DNA from: a virus
Reading direction: 5' to 3' (one strand)
Virus record (IMG/VR): IMGVR_UViG_3300020442_000865
Coordinates: 1 to 21,012 of that record
Length of the DNA: 21,012 nt
Position numbers and translations under genes: made by a program. A model generated the notes under the pieces. That model ran no database searches and had not been told where the DNA came from. It worked only from the letters and a program-made list of their open reading frames with translations. Shown here piece after piece: positions 8,758 through 21,012 of this stretch; position 1 is the stretch's first letter, and every line of letters starts with the position of its first letter.

Positions 8758-9051
8758 TTATACAAACAAGTGTCTCATAATTCCCATAGCTAAGGCTGCA
8801 CAGGCTACCCCATTTACCATGAGTAAAGCTCTGTCATGCCATAGAAATGCCATACCTGCCAATAATCCTGTACCTATACAAGACGATATAAGGTCATACA
8901 GAGGCAAAACCCCTGCTGCCCTACATATTATACCTGACATAATTAATAATGAACCTGCCCACTTTAAATACCACGAGGCATCAAAGACAGGTGTTACTTT
9001 GTTAACGAGTGTCTCCTGACCCTTGTAACTTTCCTCTTTCTTTTCTGTCAT
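8758..9051 (-). CDS. Small integral membrane protein, unknown (97 aa)
   Basis: After a polar N-terminus (about 26 residues, MTEKKEESYKGQ...) come three hydrophobic segments at roughly residues 27-45, 52-68 and 73-93. The loop between the second and third contains Trp-His-Asp-Arg (FLWHDRALL). The arrangement SWYLKW-hydrophobic-LYDL-hydrophobic-W.DRAL is one I associate with short hypothetical proteins of marine phages. The first 50 bases overlap the end of mazG, and it is the last gene of the leftward transcript. Membrane location is well supported. Function is unknown; a holin-like or superinfection role is possible only by analogy. Confidence 0.65.
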   Translation of the reverse strand: MTEKKEESYKGQETLVNKVTPVFDASWYLKWAGSLLIMSGIICRAAGVLPLYDLISSCIGTGLLAGMAFLWHDRALLMVNGVACAALAMGIMRHLFV

Positions 9052-15268: not shown

Positions 15269-17290
15269 TCATATAATATCTTTTGTGTCAAGCCAATTAT
15301 CACCTATTTTTGCTTCTAAAAGCAAGGGGACATTAAAATTTATGTTGAATTGTCCATTAACTAGTTGAGTTATTTGTTGATTTACTGTTTTTATTAAAAA
15401 TACTACCTTATTTATTTCTTCAGGATGTACATCTATAACAATAGAATCGTGGACAGTATTTACAACACAAGAGTTCAATTCTTTTAATTTATTTTCTATG
15501 TCTATAAGAACTAAAGGTACTATATCTGCAGTTGCAAAGGATTGTACAGGATAATTTTTTATTTGTGTAAAGTTTGACACCTTACCAAAGGCATTTCTTT
15601 CTACATTTGGGAATGCAAACTGTCTGCCTGATGGTGTGGTAATCATTCCTGTGCTTATAGCCTCTTTAGCCAATCTGGAATGCCATAATGCGATTTCCTT
15701 GTACTTCTCTGTGAACATCTTATAATACTGTGCTTCAGCATTCGTTCTCCCAAAGCCTGTTGCTCCATAGAGGGGTGCAAAGGTATGAGCCTTCGCCTCT
15801 TGCCTAGTCGTTTTCTGACCTGCATCACTAATAACACGAGCAGTATAACTATGCACATCAAATCCATCTTCAATCTCCTTCATTGCTATTTTATCTTGAG
15901 ACAAATAGGCTGCCGTTCTAAATTCTAACTGAGCAAAGTCTGCCTCTAATATCTTGCCACCTTCCCATCTTGATACAAATACTTTCTTTACAGGAAATGT
16001 TCCACCTCTAGGCATATTCTGCATATTAGGGTCTGCTCCACTAAATCTGCCTGTTGCAGTTCTATGTTGTAGTAATCTAACATGAAGTTTGCCATCAGGT
16101 TTAACATAAGTATTAATACCTTCAACGAAGGAAGACAAGTATGTTTCTAGTGCTGATAGTCTCTGCAAGTCTTCTAGAAACTGTACTGCATCTGTTAAAT
16201 TATTCTTCTTAGCTATGCTCTGTAGTATAACTAAATTACTTTTATTAACAGTAAAGCCATTGGCACTTACCCACTTTGCATTTGGTGGTGTGAATTTTAA
16301 TCCTGCTATTCTACCTGTAGGTCTAAAGAAGTATCCTATGCCTTCACACTCACTACACTTACTTGGTTTAGCAAAAGGTGTACCATCTTTCTTTGTTTTT
16401 CTAATCTTGCCTGAGCCTCTACATGAATTACATTGAACTGCATTTGTCTTATACACAACATCAGAATTATCTTTTACTACTTGTTTATATTCTTTGACTT
16501 CCATATAAGGTGTAAATGCATTTGCCCACATGGGTTTGTCCTTAGGCTTCCTGCTATAAATAACCCAAGACATTTGCTCAGGACTGCTGAGATTAATAGG
16601 TGTATCACCCATTAGTTGTATAACTTGTTTTCTCAATCTATCTTCTGTCTCAATCTTTTCTTTCTCAAACTCTTGTTTTACTTCTTGTAACTTATCTTTA
16701 TCTACAGAAAAACCATTCTTATATATCTTGGCTAAACATACTGATACTTTATTTGTTAGTATAACTGTGTTCATCAATCCTGCATACTCTACTGTATTTA
16801 GTTTCTTGTATAACTTATCTGACAATTCTTGTGTTGCTTTCAAGTCTGCTGATAAATATTCTTTTAATTCATCTCTTGGTATGCCATCCACTCCAATGCC
16901 TTGAGCAAAGTAATGTTTTAGTGTATCTTTCTTTTGTGTATCTAACTCATATCTTTCTGCACAAGCCTCAAGTGATAAAGGCTCTTTGATACCTCTTTGT
17001 ATTATATACTCAGCTAACATAGTATCAAATACTGCACCATCATATTTAAAGCCACACTCCCAAAGCCACATTAAATCGTAGGCTATGTTATGTCCTATAA
17101 GAATAGTTGCTCTGTCCAATACTTCTTGTAGATATATGCCATCAGGCACATCCATATTAAACAAATGCTCCTGACCATTGTCTTCTAAACATCCTACTAA
17201 TACTAATTTATTTGTAGGCTCAAATGGGTCAAGGTGCAACTTGCCGTCTCTTTTTGTCGTTGTATTTTCTACATCAAGTGTTAGTTTCAT
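15269..17290 (-). CDS. Family A DNA polymerase with 3'-5' exonuclease and zinc-ribbon insert (673 aa)
   Basis: The proofreading domain is shown by D6/E8 (LDVENT), N68/D72 (GHNIAYDL) and D149 (YLSADL). The polymerase domain has motif A DFAQLEFR (D451, E456), motif B R496-x3-K500-x3-F504-x3-Y508-G, and motif C VHDS (H614, D615); D451 and D615 would bind the catalytic metals. There is no 5' nuclease domain, as in T7 polymerase. Between the exonuclease and palm lies an insert with two CxxCxGxG motifs (287-294 and 312-319), a DnaJ-type zinc element. The residue equivalent to E. coli F762 is Phe (F504). The start overlaps the helicase stop (ATGA), and GAGG lies five bases upstream. Confidence 0.95.
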   Translation of the reverse strand: MKLTLDVENTTTKRDGKLHLDPFEPTNKLVLVGCLEDNGQEHLFNMDVPDGIYLQEVLDRATILIGHNIAYDLMWLWECGFKYDGAVFDTMLAEYIIQRGIKEPLSLEACAERYELDTQKKDTLKHYFAQGIGVDGIPRDELKEYLSADLKATQELSDKLYKKLNTVEYAGLMNTVILTNKVSVCLAKIYKNGFSVDKDKLQEVKQEFEKEKIETEDRLRKQVIQLMGDTPINLSSPEQMSWVIYSRKPKDKPMWANAFTPYMEVKEYKQVVKDNSDVVYKTNAVQCNSCRGSGKIRKTKKDGTPFAKPSKCSECEGIGYFFRPTGRIAGLKFTPPNAKWVSANGFTVNKSNLVILQSIAKKNNLTDAVQFLEDLQRLSALETYLSSFVEGINTYVKPDGKLHVRLLQHRTATGRFSGADPNMQNMPRGGTFPVKKVFVSRWEGGKILEADFAQLEFRTAAYLSQDKIAMKEIEDGFDVHSYTARVISDAGQKTTRQEAKAHTFAPLYGATGFGRTNAEAQYYKMFTEKYKEIALWHSRLAKEAISTGMITTPSGRQFAFPNVERNAFGKVSNFTQIKNYPVQSFATADIVPLVLIDIENKLKELNSCVVNTVHDSIVIDVHPEEINKVVFLIKTVNQQITQLVNGQFNINFNVPLLLEAKIGDNWLDTKDII
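16334..16432 (-). other. DnaJ-type zinc-binding insert within the DNA polymerase
   Basis: These codons specify residues 287-319 of the polymerase: CNSCRGSG, a basic linker (KIRKTKKDGTP) and CSECEGIG. Two CxxCxGxG repeats are how DnaJ central domains bind one zinc ion. The insert falls between the exonuclease and the palm, near the thumb where T7 polymerase carries its thioredoxin-binding loop. A partial DnaJ central domain in the polymerase is reported for HMO-2011-type phages. Its function is not known to me. Confidence 0.85.
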
Positions 17291-18513
17291 AAATACCTCG
17301 CAGTTAAATAATCTAACTCACAATGTTGAACACCATGCCATCCTGACAATTTATTCTTAACAACATTTAAATGTCTAGCAGGACTTTCTTCTTCTCCACC
17401 ATCAGGATTCTTGACAGTATCTTTGGCTATCAAAACCATCAAGTCAGCCTCTGCTGCCTTACCTGTTCTACTGCCTTCCATCATAGCCTGATTAAGATAA
17501 ACCTTACCTTCAGCCTCAGCAGATAGCTGAGACATATAAAAGATTGCACACTCATGTTGCTTGGCTATCTGTCTTGCATGAATTGCATTTGCCTTAAGTG
17601 CCTCATCAGGTCTAGCAAAGCCACCTGACTTAGCAAACTTATCTCCCATGTCTAGTATAACTACATCAGGTTTGTATGACTTACATACACTTTCGACCCA
17701 AGCCATGTCTCTGCCTGAGGCATCCTTTATAAAGATATTCTTTCTAACTGCATCATATAAGTCTCTTGCCTTCTCAGGATTTTCTTTTATCTCATGCATT
17801 GTCATACCTGTAGCTGATGTTAGATATCTTGCACCAACTCTATGTGCTGATTCCTCATTACATAAGATAATGCACTTAGCACCTTGATGTGCAAAGCCAC
17901 CTGTACTTGCAACAAGTGATGCATGAAAGGATGTCTTGCCTGTGTTTGGTCTAGCACCTACTTCAATTAAATGTCCTGCACTTACTCCTTCAACTTTTCG
18001 TGTCAATGCAGGTATATTAAATGTCCATTTTGCCTCTAGGCTATTCTTTGATATTAGTGTTTCCAAACTCATGTCATCCCATTCTATATTTAAATTAGGT
18101 GTAAAATCATCTGCATATAATTCCAAAATATTTCGTATGGGTTCAAGAGAGGATTTAGTACCATTAACATAGTCAAAGCCAATATTAGCAATATCCTCGC
18201 CAACAACTTGTTGAAATAGTTTAGATAATACTTCTTGTGCGACATCTTCTCCAAGAGGTTGCTCCTTTTTTATTTGTGTAAACAAACTTAAGTAGGCTTG
18301 TTTCTGTGCAGTAGTCATTGATGGATTGCCTGATATAAATAAGGCTTCAATCTCATCAGGTGTTACTGTTCTCTCATATGTAGACATTGCATTGTCAATA
18401 GCTTGTTTAATCTTTCTTACATCTTTACTAAACAATCTATCAGGACATTTTGCACCTCTATGTTCATCATAGAACTTTTTGTCCATCAAACTTCTAATTA
18501 GTGATAATTCCAT
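17287..18513 (-). CDS. Replicative DNA helicase, DnaB/gp4-type (408 aa)
   Basis: The RecA-like motor domain begins at about residue 178. Walker A is G186-x4-T-G192-K193-T194 (GARPNTGKTS), and a glutamate follows in LCNEES (E220/E221). Walker B is PDVVILDMGD (D288), and the sensor glutamine is in FYMSQLS (Q329). A late basic segment (LNVVKNKLSGWHG) is typical of the DNA-binding and arginine-finger region. The N-terminal 170 residues are helical, without a zinc finger or TOPRIM domain, so this is a stand-alone helicase. Primase is encoded just upstream with a 20-base overlap; the GGAG six to seven bases before the ATG lies inside that gene. It should unwind the fork for the polymerase. Confidence 0.9.
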   Translation of the reverse strand: MELSLIRSLMDKKFYDEHRGAKCPDRLFSKDVRKIKQAIDNAMSTYERTVTPDEIEALFISGNPSMTTAQKQAYLSLFTQIKKEQPLGEDVAQEVLSKLFQQVVGEDIANIGFDYVNGTKSSLEPIRNILELYADDFTPNLNIEWDDMSLETLISKNSLEAKWTFNIPALTRKVEGVSAGHLIEVGARPNTGKTSFHASLVASTGGFAHQGAKCIILCNEESAHRVGARYLTSATGMTMHEIKENPEKARDLYDAVRKNIFIKDASGRDMAWVESVCKSYKPDVVILDMGDKFAKSGGFARPDEALKANAIHARQIAKQHECAIFYMSQLSAEAEGKVYLNQAMMEGSRTGKAAEADLMVLIAKDTVKNPDGGEEESPARHLNVVKNKLSGWHGVQHCELDYLTARYL

Positions 18514-19285
18514 GTTGGTTCTCCTTTGGGGTTAGGTTGTGTAAATTATTAAAATCTTCCTCGTTTCTATATTTTAAATCATCCTTTATCTTTAATACTC
18601 TTACATCTTTAACATGACCTCTCAACTCTTTTGCAAAGGCTAGTGTCTTGGGCATTGCATCAGGGTCTAAGGCAATTATTGCAGTTGAGAATTGCGATAG
18701 GTACTTCTTGTGTTCTTCACTTAATGATGTTCCCAACACAGCTACCCCTACAAAAACATCATTACCTACTACAGAGGCACTTATGCAATCCTCTACTACA
18801 ACTGCCACACTACCACAACCAAAAGAAAAAGGCAAGTTATTTTTTCCATATCTTTTCCACTTAGGTAATCTAAATGTAGTTGAACGACCAATGGCATCAA
18901 CAATAACACCATTGTATTTGATAGGAAAAACTATTCTCTTTTCTTTTATATCGTAGTAGAGAGGTATTCTCTCAAAATCAATGCCATACTCAAGAGCAAA
19001 ACTTTTAATCTCAGGTCTGCCATTGTGATAAACGACATACTCAGGCATTGTAAATTCTTCTTCTAGTTGTTTAACTAATTGTAAAGAAGATTTGATATCA
19101 TCAACAGATAAGTGTATTCTCTTTGAACCTGATAAATTGCATGATGCCTTGTAACAGTTCCATAAGAGAGTTCCCATATTGTTAGTTATACTAAAAGTTT
19201 TATAACCATTGCAGGATGGACAGTTCATTCTTCTGTTTTCTCCTACACTTAAGTGTATATCATTTATATATGTATATATACTCAT
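18494..19285 (-). CDS. DNA primase with zinc finger and TOPRIM domain (263 aa)
   Basis: The N-terminal zinc-binding domain is marked by C22-x2-C25 and C44-x4-C49 (NCPSCNGYKT; WNCYKASCN). The TOPRIM domain follows, with E165 in VVVEDCISA and D207-P-D209 in IIALDPDAM, which bind Mg. This is the primase half of T7 gp4 as a separate polypeptide. It is expected to lay short RNA primers at the fork and to act with the adjacent helicase, whose start lies in its last 20 bases. The ribosome-binding site is weak (GAAAGTGA). The TA-rich start of the gene (ATGAGTATATATACATATAT) is coding and should not be read as a promoter. Confidence 0.92.
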   Translation of the reverse strand: MSIYTYINDIHLSVGENRRMNCPSCNGYKTFSITNNMGTLLWNCYKASCNLSGSKRIHLSVDDIKSSLQLVKQLEEEFTMPEYVVYHNGRPEIKSFALEYGIDFERIPLYYDIKEKRIVFPIKYNGVIVDAIGRSTTFRLPKWKRYGKNNLPFSFGCGSVAVVVEDCISASVVGNDVFVGVAVLGTSLSEEHKKYLSQFSTAIIALDPDAMPKTLAFAKELRGHVKDVRVLKIKDDLKYRNEEDFNNLHNLTPKENQHGIITN

Positions 19286-19310: not shown

Positions 19311-20213
19311 TTAATTGTTAGTATCGTAATTTTTTCTAGTTGTCAAGGCTCTTTTTGCACTTTCATAAGTATTTTTCATGTAAGGCTTAACTGATTGTGG
19401 ATTTGCATGACCTGTAACTGACATAATCTGACCCATTGACACACCTGCCTCAACCATTTCCGTAGTACCTGTTCTTCTTAAATCAGCGATTCTAAGCTCA
19501 TTAGGTAAGCCACAGAGCTTGATAACCCTTCTTGCTACTATAGATAGCCTATGAAGTGAATATGGCTTGTATGAGCCTCTAAGGGTGCTTGGATAGGGTG
19601 CGACATATTCTTGGAAGTCATAGTCGTGTTTCTGTTCCCTCAGCATTTCAAGTAAATCTTCGCTAATTGGCAGGGTAACACTTGCACCTCTCTTAGATTG
19701 CTCAAGATTGAGTATTCCCTTATCATAATCTATGTTTTCAAACTTAAGTAACCTCATATCTCCTACTCTTTGACACCATTCATATGCCATTTGTATAATT
19801 AAACCTAAACTTCTATATTTAAATTCACTATAACAGTAGTCTAACATCTGTGTTATTTGTTCCCTTGTCCATACAACCTTTCTAGGCTTGGTAACTTTAC
19901 ATTTAAATGTAGAGAAGGGATTGTATTCTGCATATCCCATCTCCATTGCAAAGGAATAAACTTTTCTAGATGTAGCAACCATGTGGTTTGCCATATAGAT
20001 GCCACGATTTAGCCACACTTCATATGACTGTCTTGCTATAGCACCTGACAGTTTATTAACTTTAGTTGTACAAATAAAATGTCTACCGACTTTTGTCTTC
20101 AAAACTGACTCAAGACAATTCGTATAATCTACTTTAGTTTTTACTGCTAACATACTGTAATCACTAGATTTATAGTATTCGTTAACCAACTCTTGCATTG
20201 TCATTTTGTTCAT
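19311..20213 (-). CDS. int: Tyrosine recombinase/integrase (300 aa)
   Basis: An N-terminal SAM-like core-binding region (about residues 1-105) precedes the catalytic domain. Likely catalytic residues are R149 (CQRVGDMRLL), K174 (EQSKRG), R246 (ADLRRTGTTEM), H269 (VTGHANPQS) and the nucleophile Y278 (KPYMKNT). The usual box II His of HxxR is Ala (A243), a substitution tolerated in some members. The order and size fit phage integrases, suggesting that the phage can integrate or resolve its genome. No attachment site or tRNA fragment is visible nearby. The start overlaps the upstream gene by 32 bases with GAGAG before it; ATG 20204 is a possible later start. Confidence 0.88.
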   Translation of the reverse strand: MNKMTMQELVNEYYKSSDYSMLAVKTKVDYTNCLESVLKTKVGRHFICTTKVNKLSGAIARQSYEVWLNRGIYMANHMVATSRKVYSFAMEMGYAEYNPFSTFKCKVTKPRKVVWTREQITQMLDYCYSEFKYRSLGLIIQMAYEWCQRVGDMRLLKFENIDYDKGILNLEQSKRGASVTLPISEDLLEMLREQKHDYDFQEYVAPYPSTLRGSYKPYSLHRLSIVARRVIKLCGLPNELRIADLRRTGTTEMVEAGVSMGQIMSVTGHANPQSVKPYMKNTYESAKRALTTRKNYDTNN

Positions 20214-20529
20214 TTTTTAACTCTCTTTCAATTTTGTTTTGTTCTACAAATCTGTTTAAAAATCTAGTAACAAAATCATCTATGCCATTACTATAATAAT
20301 GAACTTTATATTTCATTCTTCTTCTAGACCACCTACCTGTAGTCCAATAGTAAACATATTCTCTACCCTCTTCATTTTCTATATAAACCAAAGATGCAGG
20401 TATGTTTACTCGATATTCAATATTTTTTTCTTTAAGATAATTTTTAACAAATTCTAAACTTTCATTTGTATCTTTTCTAAATACTGCCTCTCCTTTTGAA
20501 TTTGTTCTAACGTATTGCCATTTACTCAT
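20182..20529 (-). CDS. Unknown protein (115 aa)
   Basis: It starts after an excellent AAGGAG at spacing 5, placed over the last codons of the upstream membrane microprotein. The sequence has MSKWQYVRTNSKGEAVFRKD, a basic Trp/Arg segment (YYWTTGRWSRRRMKYKVHYY, about 60-79) and a helical, charged C-terminus. It is basic and could bind nucleic acid, perhaps as an excisionase or regulator in view of the adjoining integrase, but no helix-turn-helix is evident and I recognise no family. The overlap with the integrase start suggests coupled expression. Confidence 0.65.
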   Translation of the reverse strand: MSKWQYVRTNSKGEAVFRKDTNESLEFVKNYLKEKNIEYRVNIPASLVYIENEEGREYVYYWTTGRWSRRRMKYKVHYYSNGIDDFVTRFLNRFVEQNKIERELKNEQNDNARVG

Positions 20530-20531
20530 GC

Positions 20532-20699
20532 TTACTCCTTCCTAAACTCTACTATAACCCATGCTATAAACATAGGTATAAATGTTATAATATAGACTAT
20601 CCAAACTAGCAAGGAATAAACATTGTGCTTTTTTGAATAGTCTTCCCAAGATAATAATATCATATCATCTTCTTTTTGTTGTTGTTTTGTTTTAGTCAT
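20532..20699 (-). CDS. Single-pass membrane microprotein (55 aa)
   Basis: The frame runs from ATG 20699 to TAA 20532. Its start overlaps the upstream stop as ATGA. The product has a polar N-terminus (MTKTKQQQKEDD), a short linker (SWEDYSKKHN) and one long hydrophobic helix (VYSLLVWIVYIITFIPMFIA at about 28-47, continuing WVIVEF), then FRKE. The positive residues after the helix suggest the C-terminus is cytoplasmic. No family is recognised. Small early-gene membrane proteins in phages can alter the host envelope or block superinfection, which is only an analogy. The start/stop coupling on both sides supports it as real. Confidence 0.65.
   Translation of the reverse strand: MTKTKQQQKEDDMILLSWEDYSKKHNVYSLLVWIVYIITFIPMFIAWVIVEFRKE
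20535..20540 (-). promoter_or_regulatory. Strong ribosome-binding site AAGGAG for the 115-aa gene
   Basis: AAGGAG lies five bases before ATG 20529 and also encodes the last two residues (Lys-Glu) of the upstream 55-aa gene. It is the most complete Shine-Dalgarno sequence I saw in the right half of the window. Confidence 0.75.
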
Positions 20700-20866
20700 A
20701 CAACTGTCTTGTAAGTTTGTAATGTACCTTTCATATCATCAGATTGGCTCATATATTTTTTACCAAATGCAAAAACATATATTTGTTTTTTCTCTTCATC
20801 AGTACAAGATGATATTTTTTTATCTTTAATTATTTTAATCATTTCAGTTTCTGATAATTTCTTCAT
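20696..20866 (-). CDS. Small soluble early protein, unknown (56 aa)
   Basis: ATG 20866 (MKKLSETEMIKIIKDKK) is chosen over the longer frame at 20926 for two reasons: GGAG lies seven bases upstream, and the start overlaps the stop of the 27-aa gene as ATGA. The product is short, charged and mostly helical (KLSETEMIKIIKDKKISS, then DEEKKQIYVFAFGKKYMSQS). No motif is recognised. Its stop overlaps the next start (ATGA), so at least three small genes here are chained. A host-takeover or regulatory role would be typical of such early genes but is not shown. Confidence 0.6.
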   Translation of the reverse strand: MKKLSETEMIKIIKDKKISSCTDEEKKQIYVFAFGKKYMSQSDDMKGTLQTYKTVV

Positions 20867-20946
20867 AATCCTACTCCCATAAATCCTAGTATGAATGCCA
20901 TGCAACACATACCAAGTATAAACCAAATTAATTCTTCATTATTCAT
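20863..20946 (-). CDS. Tiny hydrophobic membrane peptide (27 aa)
   Basis: The frame starts at ATG 20946 with GGAG seven bases upstream and ends in ATGA overlapping the next gene. The peptide is MNNEELIWFILGMCCMAFIL followed by GFMGVGL: five polar residues, then one continuous hydrophobic segment long enough to span a membrane. Frames this short arise by chance, but the good ribosome-binding site, the coupled stop/start and the ordered membrane-like composition together make translation likely. Function unknown. Confidence 0.5.
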   Translation of the reverse strand: MNNEELIWFILGMCCMAFILGFMGVGL

Positions 20947-21012
20947 GTGTCCACTCCTCTTGTTTACAAAATAAATCTATACCAAAGTCATAACCTTGTT
21001 TATAGTAATAAC
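20939..21012 (-). CDS. C-terminal end of a further small gene (5' partial)
   Basis: One minus-strand frame is open from the right edge to TAA at 20939-20941, giving 23 residues that end CKQEEWTHE and include YKQGYDFGIDLF. The stop lies inside the first codons of the 27-aa gene (8-base overlap), the same packing seen throughout this operon. The GGAG for the next gene is within its Glu-Glu-Trp codons. Too little is visible to name it. Confidence 0.45.
   Translation of the reverse strand, partial: YYYKQGYDFGIDLFCKQEEWTHE

Follow-up and report, generated by a model that had tools for sequence, protein, structure and literature searches.

The nearest described arrangement to the gene chain reported here is the ninR chain of lambdoid phages. 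Excerpts of two studies portray the nin region as a run of tightly packed, dispensable genes, largely of unknown function, in the early operon, with numerous ATGA start/stop overlaps and a gene content that varies among phages (PMC8022706; PMC10695390). The present chain shares with ninR the ATGA-linked succession of genes and a content that is variable between related phages. It differs from ninR in that its members p27, p56, p55 and p115 have no nin-family match in PHROGs, in that it stands before the integrase and replication genes and not between the replication genes and Q, in its additional, frequent class of 8-base overlaps and its membrane-peptide links of 27-55 aa, and in that its dispensability is deduced from absence in relatives. 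The ninR gene chain was reportedly treated by Kroger and Hobom in 1982. Judged by gene arrangement, the island described below appears to work like a nin chain, but we do not class it as one.

Two further reference points come from marine phages and from small membrane proteins. Extracts of one study describe the HMO-2011-type phages as dominant and broadly distributed in the ocean, give an assigned function for 254 of their 1235 protein groups, and name as a hallmark a partial DnaJ domain with two CXXCXGXG repeats, placed centrally in the DNA polymerase between its exonuclease and polymerase domains (PMC9038755). Escherichia coli YohP (27 aa), as it is portrayed in part of the literature, is like p27 in length and one-helix make-up; the gene setting of p27 is viral, and the two are likened by size and make-up, not by sequence. 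Among the matches listed in open-licence PubMed Central, we found no paper on the island or on p27.

Window and phage group

The window is the whole stretch of DNA that was analysed, namely the 21,012 bases of the bacterial virus record IMGVR_UViG_3300020442_000865 in IMG/VR. Downstream of p115 its genes follow the order integrase, primase, helicase and DNA polymerase, as in HMO-2011-type phages, and all four assignments are supported by PHROGs. The tyrosine integrase (19311-20213, minus strand; phrog_1 integrase, 5.7e-36) forms the downstream end of the island, and the DNA primase (18494-19285, minus strand) is the first replication gene behind it. The DNA polymerase (15269-17290, minus strand) is 64.1% identical to that of Puniceispirillum phage HMO-2011 over 100% of its length, and reading its translation by eye revealed an inserted, DnaJ-like CXXCXGXG segment with the repeats CNSCRGSG and CSECEGIG. 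The criterion for the group comprises ten core genes, including portal, capsid and terminase, and the window genes set beside it are the primase, helicase and polymerase with their PHROGs matches. On these sequence comparisons the window comes from an HMO-2011-type phage, and because of this phage group its origin is probably marine. At its other end the leftward operon borders on the rightward genes, and there a 97-aa protein with hydrophobic stretches is encoded (8758-9051, minus strand; DUF6552 match, 5.1e-11).

A chain of overlapping small genes

The small genes, all on the minus strand, lie exactly where the original prediction had placed them and with the overlaps that it had given. The first of them, A73, is cut by the window edge: an open frame at 20939-21012 represents the 3' end of a cassette of 61-85 aa, complete relatives of which are present in L001, L003, L004, L041, L069, L076 and L078 (family dN/dS 0.43). 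A73 joins p27 (20863-20946) through the 8-base overlap ATGAATAA, and its codons GAG GAG hold the ribosome-binding site of p27 (GAGGAG, 20959-20954). The joins from p27 to p56 (20696-20866) and from p56 to p55 (20532-20699) are each a 4-base ATGA overlap. A gap of 2 bases separates p55 from p115 (20182-20529), whose ribosome-binding site, the AAGGAG noted in the original prediction, lies within the last codons of p55 (20535-20540, read as 20540-20535), and p115 in turn overlaps the integrase frame by 32 bases.

When the 481 bases were re-drawn 20,000 times from a first-order Markov model, a comparable three-gene chain appeared once; it was defined as three ATG frames with minimum lengths of 25, 50 and 50 aa and overlaps of 1-8 bases, thresholds that were picked after the data had been seen. 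Conservation is the stronger evidence that the small genes are genuine. Their frames, for which a survey of relatives and of dN/dS had been suggested, are kept at 46 IMG/VR loci for p27, 16 for p55, 5 for p56 and 111 for p115 (80 of them retained in our set), and dN/dS ranges from 0.22 to 0.32 for the four genes. The frames thereby withstood the check that the original prediction had named as able to overturn it, a lack of conservation in close relatives. The comparisons thus run, which cover the anatomy of the chain, selection on its proteins and modular exchange, indicate that the small chained genes are genuine and conserved.

Conservation and predicted structure of the small proteins

The length of p27 is 27 aa in all 77 gene calls, many of which represent one contig fetched twice, and these calls comprise 26 distinct nucleotide sequences. 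A broader profile raises the count of loci from 46 to 48, with two loci on one contig in each list; alignment over 70% of the longer protein was required, so that much longer relatives are uncounted. In all 26 distinct sequences, positions 6-27 are free of K, R, D, E, N, Q, H and P, and the other two forward frames are stopped. Variable columns number 13, 6 and 22 of 26 each at codon positions 1, 2 and 3, and dN/dS is 0.25 (234 of 325 pairs), or 0.27 from loci not fetched with p27. All dN/dS values were obtained from aligned codons in pairs with pS <=0.55; the loci are partly redundant and the pairs not independent. Both length and hydrophobicity of p27 are retained down to 54% identity, and its best 19-residue Kyte-Doolittle mean is 2.32, in one strongly hydrophobic stretch. 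Given the conserved length, dN/dS and residue make-up, p27 is best read as a predicted single-pass membrane microprotein. Regarding finer detail, a packing face in the p27 helix was rejected, the seven always-small positions being no more one-sided than random (fraction 0.81), and a regular-looking subset of four positions was dropped as chosen after the fact. A tandem arrangement of p27 in L128/L129 (G013, contig IMGVR_UViG_3300037991_002652) was set aside, as a run of N lies between the copies; the two differ, stand ~0.5 kb apart and are probably a scaffold join, or else a true duplication.

The second predicted membrane protein of the chain, p55, comprises a charged N-terminal part followed by one predicted membrane helix. 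Its dN/dS is 0.22 (47 of 78 pairs; 0.23 from loci not fetched with p55), its best 19-residue hydropathy mean is 2.51, again in one strongly hydrophobic stretch, and AlphaFold models residues 5-53 as one helix (mean pLDDT 83.9, pTM 0.44). By these models p55 is likewise best read as a single-pass membrane microprotein. That p27 and p55 each look like one membrane helix had been proposed from the sequence, and the predictions agree: the single transmembrane helix by which small membrane proteins are recognised is predicted in both. The protein between them, p56, has no membrane helix and is an optional cassette (dN/dS 0.30, 10 of 10 pairs), replaced by a cassette of 44 aa in L001 and L004.

For p115 (dN/dS 0.32 from 69 of 780 pairs, with 40 sequences sampled), AlphaFold gave a confident alpha/beta model from a 55-row alignment (mean pLDDT 86.0). 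Foldseek returned no convincing match for this model (best PDB E 0.44, viral models E 0.028, VIA Z 6.3), and the p115 profile found nothing better than E 0.28 among PDB sequences.

The suggestion that such genes are rarely annotated is borne out by their poor coverage in family libraries. Neither p27 nor p56 has a PHROG match at E up to 1, the best PHROG matches of p55 (E 0.035) and p115 (E 0.0021) are weak, and PADLOC matches none of the four. Against PDB sequences, the p27 profile gave no match, and the best hit of p55 (E 0.034), an unrelated viral envelope chain, was judged to be chance. Searching a collection of phage records by tblastn yielded no convincing match for p27, p55 or p115; p27 hit a Providencia phage spanin (E 5) and p115 hit Klebsiella phages of ~300 kb (E 0.4), both at chance level. 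The default shortest gene in Prodigal is 90 bases, and p27, at 84 bases, would therefore be missed with that setting. Gene calling in the HMO-2011-type study, according to an extract, employed GeneMark and Prodigal (PMC9038755).

A cassette island between methylase and integrase

In relatives of the locus, the microprotein chain proves to be the integrase-side end of a larger island. This island, a string of mostly small genes, extends from a C5 cytosine methylase gene to the integrase, and the majority of its genes are optional cassettes. The original prediction covered this one end, and the start-to-start modularity of the whole is the larger finding. The methylase gene is found before the integrase in 18 of 80 integrase loci, many of the others ending earlier. 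Besides A73, we labelled the cassettes TM118, SleB, K166, G34, H43, T37, E44, X51, F47, D63, N82, M187, R108, V154, Y284, Z291 and Dcm; the labels are our own, and one representative was scanned per family. TM118 (118 aa) is strongly hydrophobic, and G34, H43 and T37 contain one hydrophobic stretch each, the G34 family taking in two membrane cassettes of 34-45 aa. SleB is a PF07486 cell-wall hydrolase (9e-26; phrog_938 endolysin, 1.2e-22), and K166 resembles the pyrimidine-dimer glycosylases of PF03013, just at the cut-off, with a match to phrog_624 'DNA binding protein' (5.4e-40). Y284 corresponds to DUF932, Dcm to PF00145 and Z291 to an ADP-ribosylglycohydrolase. The latter (PF03747, 4.8e-62) is an optional cassette directly before the integrase at L025:1199-2074 and occurs also in L027, L029, L030, L036, L037 and L039; according to an extract of the HMO-2011-type study, five genomes of subgroup I contain a gene of this kind (PMC9038755). 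The methylase, ADP-ribosylglycohydrolase, glycosylase-like and hydrolase neighbours fit accessory, host-directed functions. For ten other cassettes, dN/dS ranges from 0.12 (TM118) to 0.62 (G34).

The content of the island is highly variable. Removing redundancy left 95 of 226 loci, 19 of which hold both methylase and integrase, and the gene strings between the two differ in 19 of 19 regions, also when named families alone are considered; near-identical loci had been removed beforehand, which favours difference. Regarding order, 8 of 95 co-occurring named pairs were found both ways round. In the 19 regions, p27 co-occurs with p55 (p 0.018) and p55 with E44 (p 0.035); as these are the only pairs below 0.05 and are uncorrected for many tests, we did not build upon them. 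Of the 18 integrase-selected regions in which a methylase precedes the integrase, 4 contain p27, and its function would therefore be dispensable.

The Roseobacter phages CRP-1 and CRP-345 carry SleB, K166 and DUF932 cassettes before the integrase, and of these three HMO-2011 carries only DUF932. In the stretches searched from the start of HMO-2011, CRP-1 and CRP-345 (11.0, 12.6 and 13.5 kb long), p27, p55, p56, p115, A73 and TM118 were not found.

Cassette borders run from start codon to start codon

Comparison of the loci indicates that most cassettes are modules which begin with their own start codon and end where the next gene starts. The clearest case is p27, whose neighbours we surveyed in 46 copies (45 loci and the window; L119, which begins inside p27, was excluded). 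Upstream stands TM118 in 23 copies, A73 in 10, G34 in 6, Dcm in 2, F47 and D63 in 1 each, and an unassigned gene or none in 3. Downstream, 43 of the 45 copies with a called gene have a 4-base overlap, and the genes that follow are of eight kinds (E44, K166, integrase, p55, p56, X51, F47 and one unassigned gene). When copies with differing upstream genes are compared in 10-base bins, identity is 0.27-0.40 in the 40 bases before the ATG, close to the background of 0.278 for random 10-mers, and 0.91 over the 10 bases with which the gene begins; copies that share their upstream gene are 0.74-0.84 identical before the ATG. Past the stop codon, copies with differing downstream genes drop in identity from 0.92 to 0.43 within 6 bases and lie at 0.20-0.42 thereafter.

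A sharp step at the start codon is also seen for p55 (0.38 to 0.82), K166 (0.40 to 0.99) and SleB (0.30 to 0.71). A weaker step was found for p115, A73, N82, M187 and the integrase, whose initial codons are themselves variable, and a blurred one for H43, where the 10 bases ahead of the start already show an identity of 0.60, with 0.93 behind it. For TM118 the comparison is uninformative, as pairs with the same neighbour are low too (0.37-0.60). The analysis leaves out p56 and E44, with one named upstream gene each, and genes with unnamed neighbours. At the 3' border of p27, the stop codon is TGA in 25 of 26 distinct sequences, the single TAA (L101) occurring where the next gene follows without overlap, and in most variants the final codons spell GGAG and TTATGA. 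In L001, p115 is missing from start to start, and the integrase ATG stands directly behind p55. From these identity steps and the absence of p115 in L001, the last codons of a module carry the ribosome-binding site and the overlap for the next gene.

With E44 or p56 upstream, p55 lacks a Shine-Dalgarno match in all 30 calls; with X51 upstream it has one in 6 of 6 calls, and with p27 in 3 of 6 (redundant loci included). This pattern fits coupled translation, with the matches behind p27 as a point against it. In the window, coupling is expected for p55 because of its ATGA overlap with p56, no ribosome-binding site of its own having been found.

Analyzing all gene starts of the non-redundant set, which were called with a simple, purpose-written scoring script and not with a standard caller, we found that the 4-base overlap outnumbers every other class in the island. 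The 427 starts through to that of the integrase comprise 102 overlaps of 4 bases, 56 of 1 base and 47 of 8 bases; among 206 starts further downstream there are 37 of 4 bases and 7 of 1 base, and the 8-base class falls outside the 15 commonest. Apart from the 4- and 8-base overlaps, ATG starts read ATGA in 128 of 270 cases in the island versus 70 of 161 downstream, and ATGANTA(A/G) in 32 of 270 versus 10 of 161. ATGA is found at 0 of 28 starts of H43 and 1 of 12 of Y284, and H43, T37 and V154 never start with it. We therefore rejected ATGA as a general start rule, there being no clear enrichment outside those overlaps, and state the rule for overlapping borders, not for every cassette.

How modules are exchanged at these borders may involve short homologies. 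The start ATGAGTAAA is shared by p115 in the window (20529-20515) and the integrase in L003 (1815), and the integrase of L004 (3001) starts with ATGAGCAAG. A start shared in this way is a possible short homology for the insertion or loss of p115. According to an extract of one study, RecET recombines at 5-13 bp (PMC2327257), so that homologies of such length could serve cassette exchange.

Other repeats and replacements were seen near the borders. In L001, a 20-base direct repeat (936-955 and 1540-1559, 85% alike) occurs where the SleB and p55 genes end, each copy just before the next gene start, that is, at two cassette borders, and a second pair is 29 bases long and 72% alike; no direct repeats were found in L003, and a two-copy repeat of such size in L001 may be chance. 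On the contig of L003, a cassette of 108 aa (L091:1496-1822) replaces p115 between p55 and the integrase; its match to PD-(D/E)XK nucleases is weak (0.005, below the cut-off).

Possible functions of the predicted membrane microproteins

The explanation that we favour, with somewhat better than even confidence, is that the locus is an integrase-proximal accessory island of chained modules in which p27 and p55 are membrane microproteins, made by coupled translation, with dispensable, host-directed functions. The comparison shows modules gained, lost and replaced at start-to-start borders, leaving the chain unbroken, and a ribosome finishing one frame would re-start on the next, most clearly at p55. 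With the integrase and replication genes following on from the chain, expression is presumably early, and p27 and p55 would insert as single helices in the host inner membrane, by their predicted topology, early in infection. There they would most likely modify the host envelope or a membrane process for the phage, with exclusion of other phages, host takeover and protection from defence as candidate roles, and these functions would be dispensable and vary from phage to phage. The early timing and the host-directed function are read from position and gene company. The original prediction had likewise named envelope, anti-defence or superinfection roles for these microproteins, which stand as an analogy.

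A bolder version, which we regard as rather unlikely, sees an open plug-in system: a gene starting with ATGA (ATGANTA(A/G) as the 8-base connector) could join behind another without linker or promoter, HMO-2011-type phages would in this way put together, each phage for itself, combinatorial sets of small enzymes and membrane microproteins directed at hosts and competing phages, and p27 would be the founding member of a new phage family of 27-aa membrane effectors, which usual gene calling may overlook at a gene length of only 84 bases. A strict plug-in rule is weakened by the starts reported above, as outside the 4- and 8-base overlaps ATGA is about as frequent downstream, and H43 and Y284 never or rarely start so.

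In the main rival reading, the chain would be a lysis module, with p27, p55 or both, together with TM118, acting as holin, antiholin or spanin-like partners of the SleB hydrolase. SleB is the second cassette upstream of p27 in L001 and L003, and 8 of 46 p27 loci contain it, many loci ending before it could show. Small one-helix proteins, the make-up predicted for p27 and p55, can be holins. The chain, however, reads into replication genes and not into late genes, and a search for this endolysin type found PF07486 in none of 8 long p27-bearing contigs (32-55 kb, possibly incomplete). The same search matched 3 of 4 p27-free contigs in which SleB was already known, which demonstrates that it works and is not an independent control. 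Together with p27, SleB occurs in 1 of 8 p27 regions, versus 5 of 11 regions without p27 (Fisher p 0.18, not significant). We consider a lysis role for p27 and p55 unlikely, and less likely than the host-directed reading.

Slightly less probable again is that p27 and p55 are membrane-depolarising toxins, similar to those of type I systems, or regulators of one host membrane protein. Their size and one-helix make-up suit such a role, and an extract of one study documents membrane insertion of a 27-aa protein through SRP and SecYEG/YidC (PMC7549839), but p27 has no family match in PHROGs or PADLOC, and the proposal differs from the favoured explanation only in the exact target.

That the peptides themselves are unimportant, and that only the ribosome-binding sites and overlaps leading to p115 and the integrase are conserved, accords with the way in which these signals are built into the coding ends, including the last codons of p27, but is rendered very improbable by the dN/dS of 0.22-0.30 for p27, p55 and p56, by the length and hydrophobicity that p27 keeps in its most divergent copies, and by the integrase following many different genes, with p27 often absent.

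The locus is more interesting as a cassette system than as a source of single peptides. The island gives a simple start-codon-to-start-codon rule for the exchange of very small phage genes, and by the same rule microprotein genes can be sought whose shortness puts them beyond usual gene calling. Present with an unchanged 27 codons on more than 40 contigs, p27 is a compact candidate for phage one-helix peptides directed against hosts.

Integrase relatives in genome contigs

Searching genome contigs with the integrase returned 5 loci, which we judged insufficient to assign a host. The best relative (77%) is on a 22.5-kb contig of a Rhodobiaceae MAG, and the others are at 47%. The latter include identical copies of two phage contigs in Flavobacteriales and Neomarinimicrobiota MAG bins (L232-L235), a sign of mis-binning. 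Upstream of the integrase on the Rhodobiaceae-labelled contig, L231:486-569 shows 46% identity to 28 residues of p56 (E 2.7e-4 in a small search).
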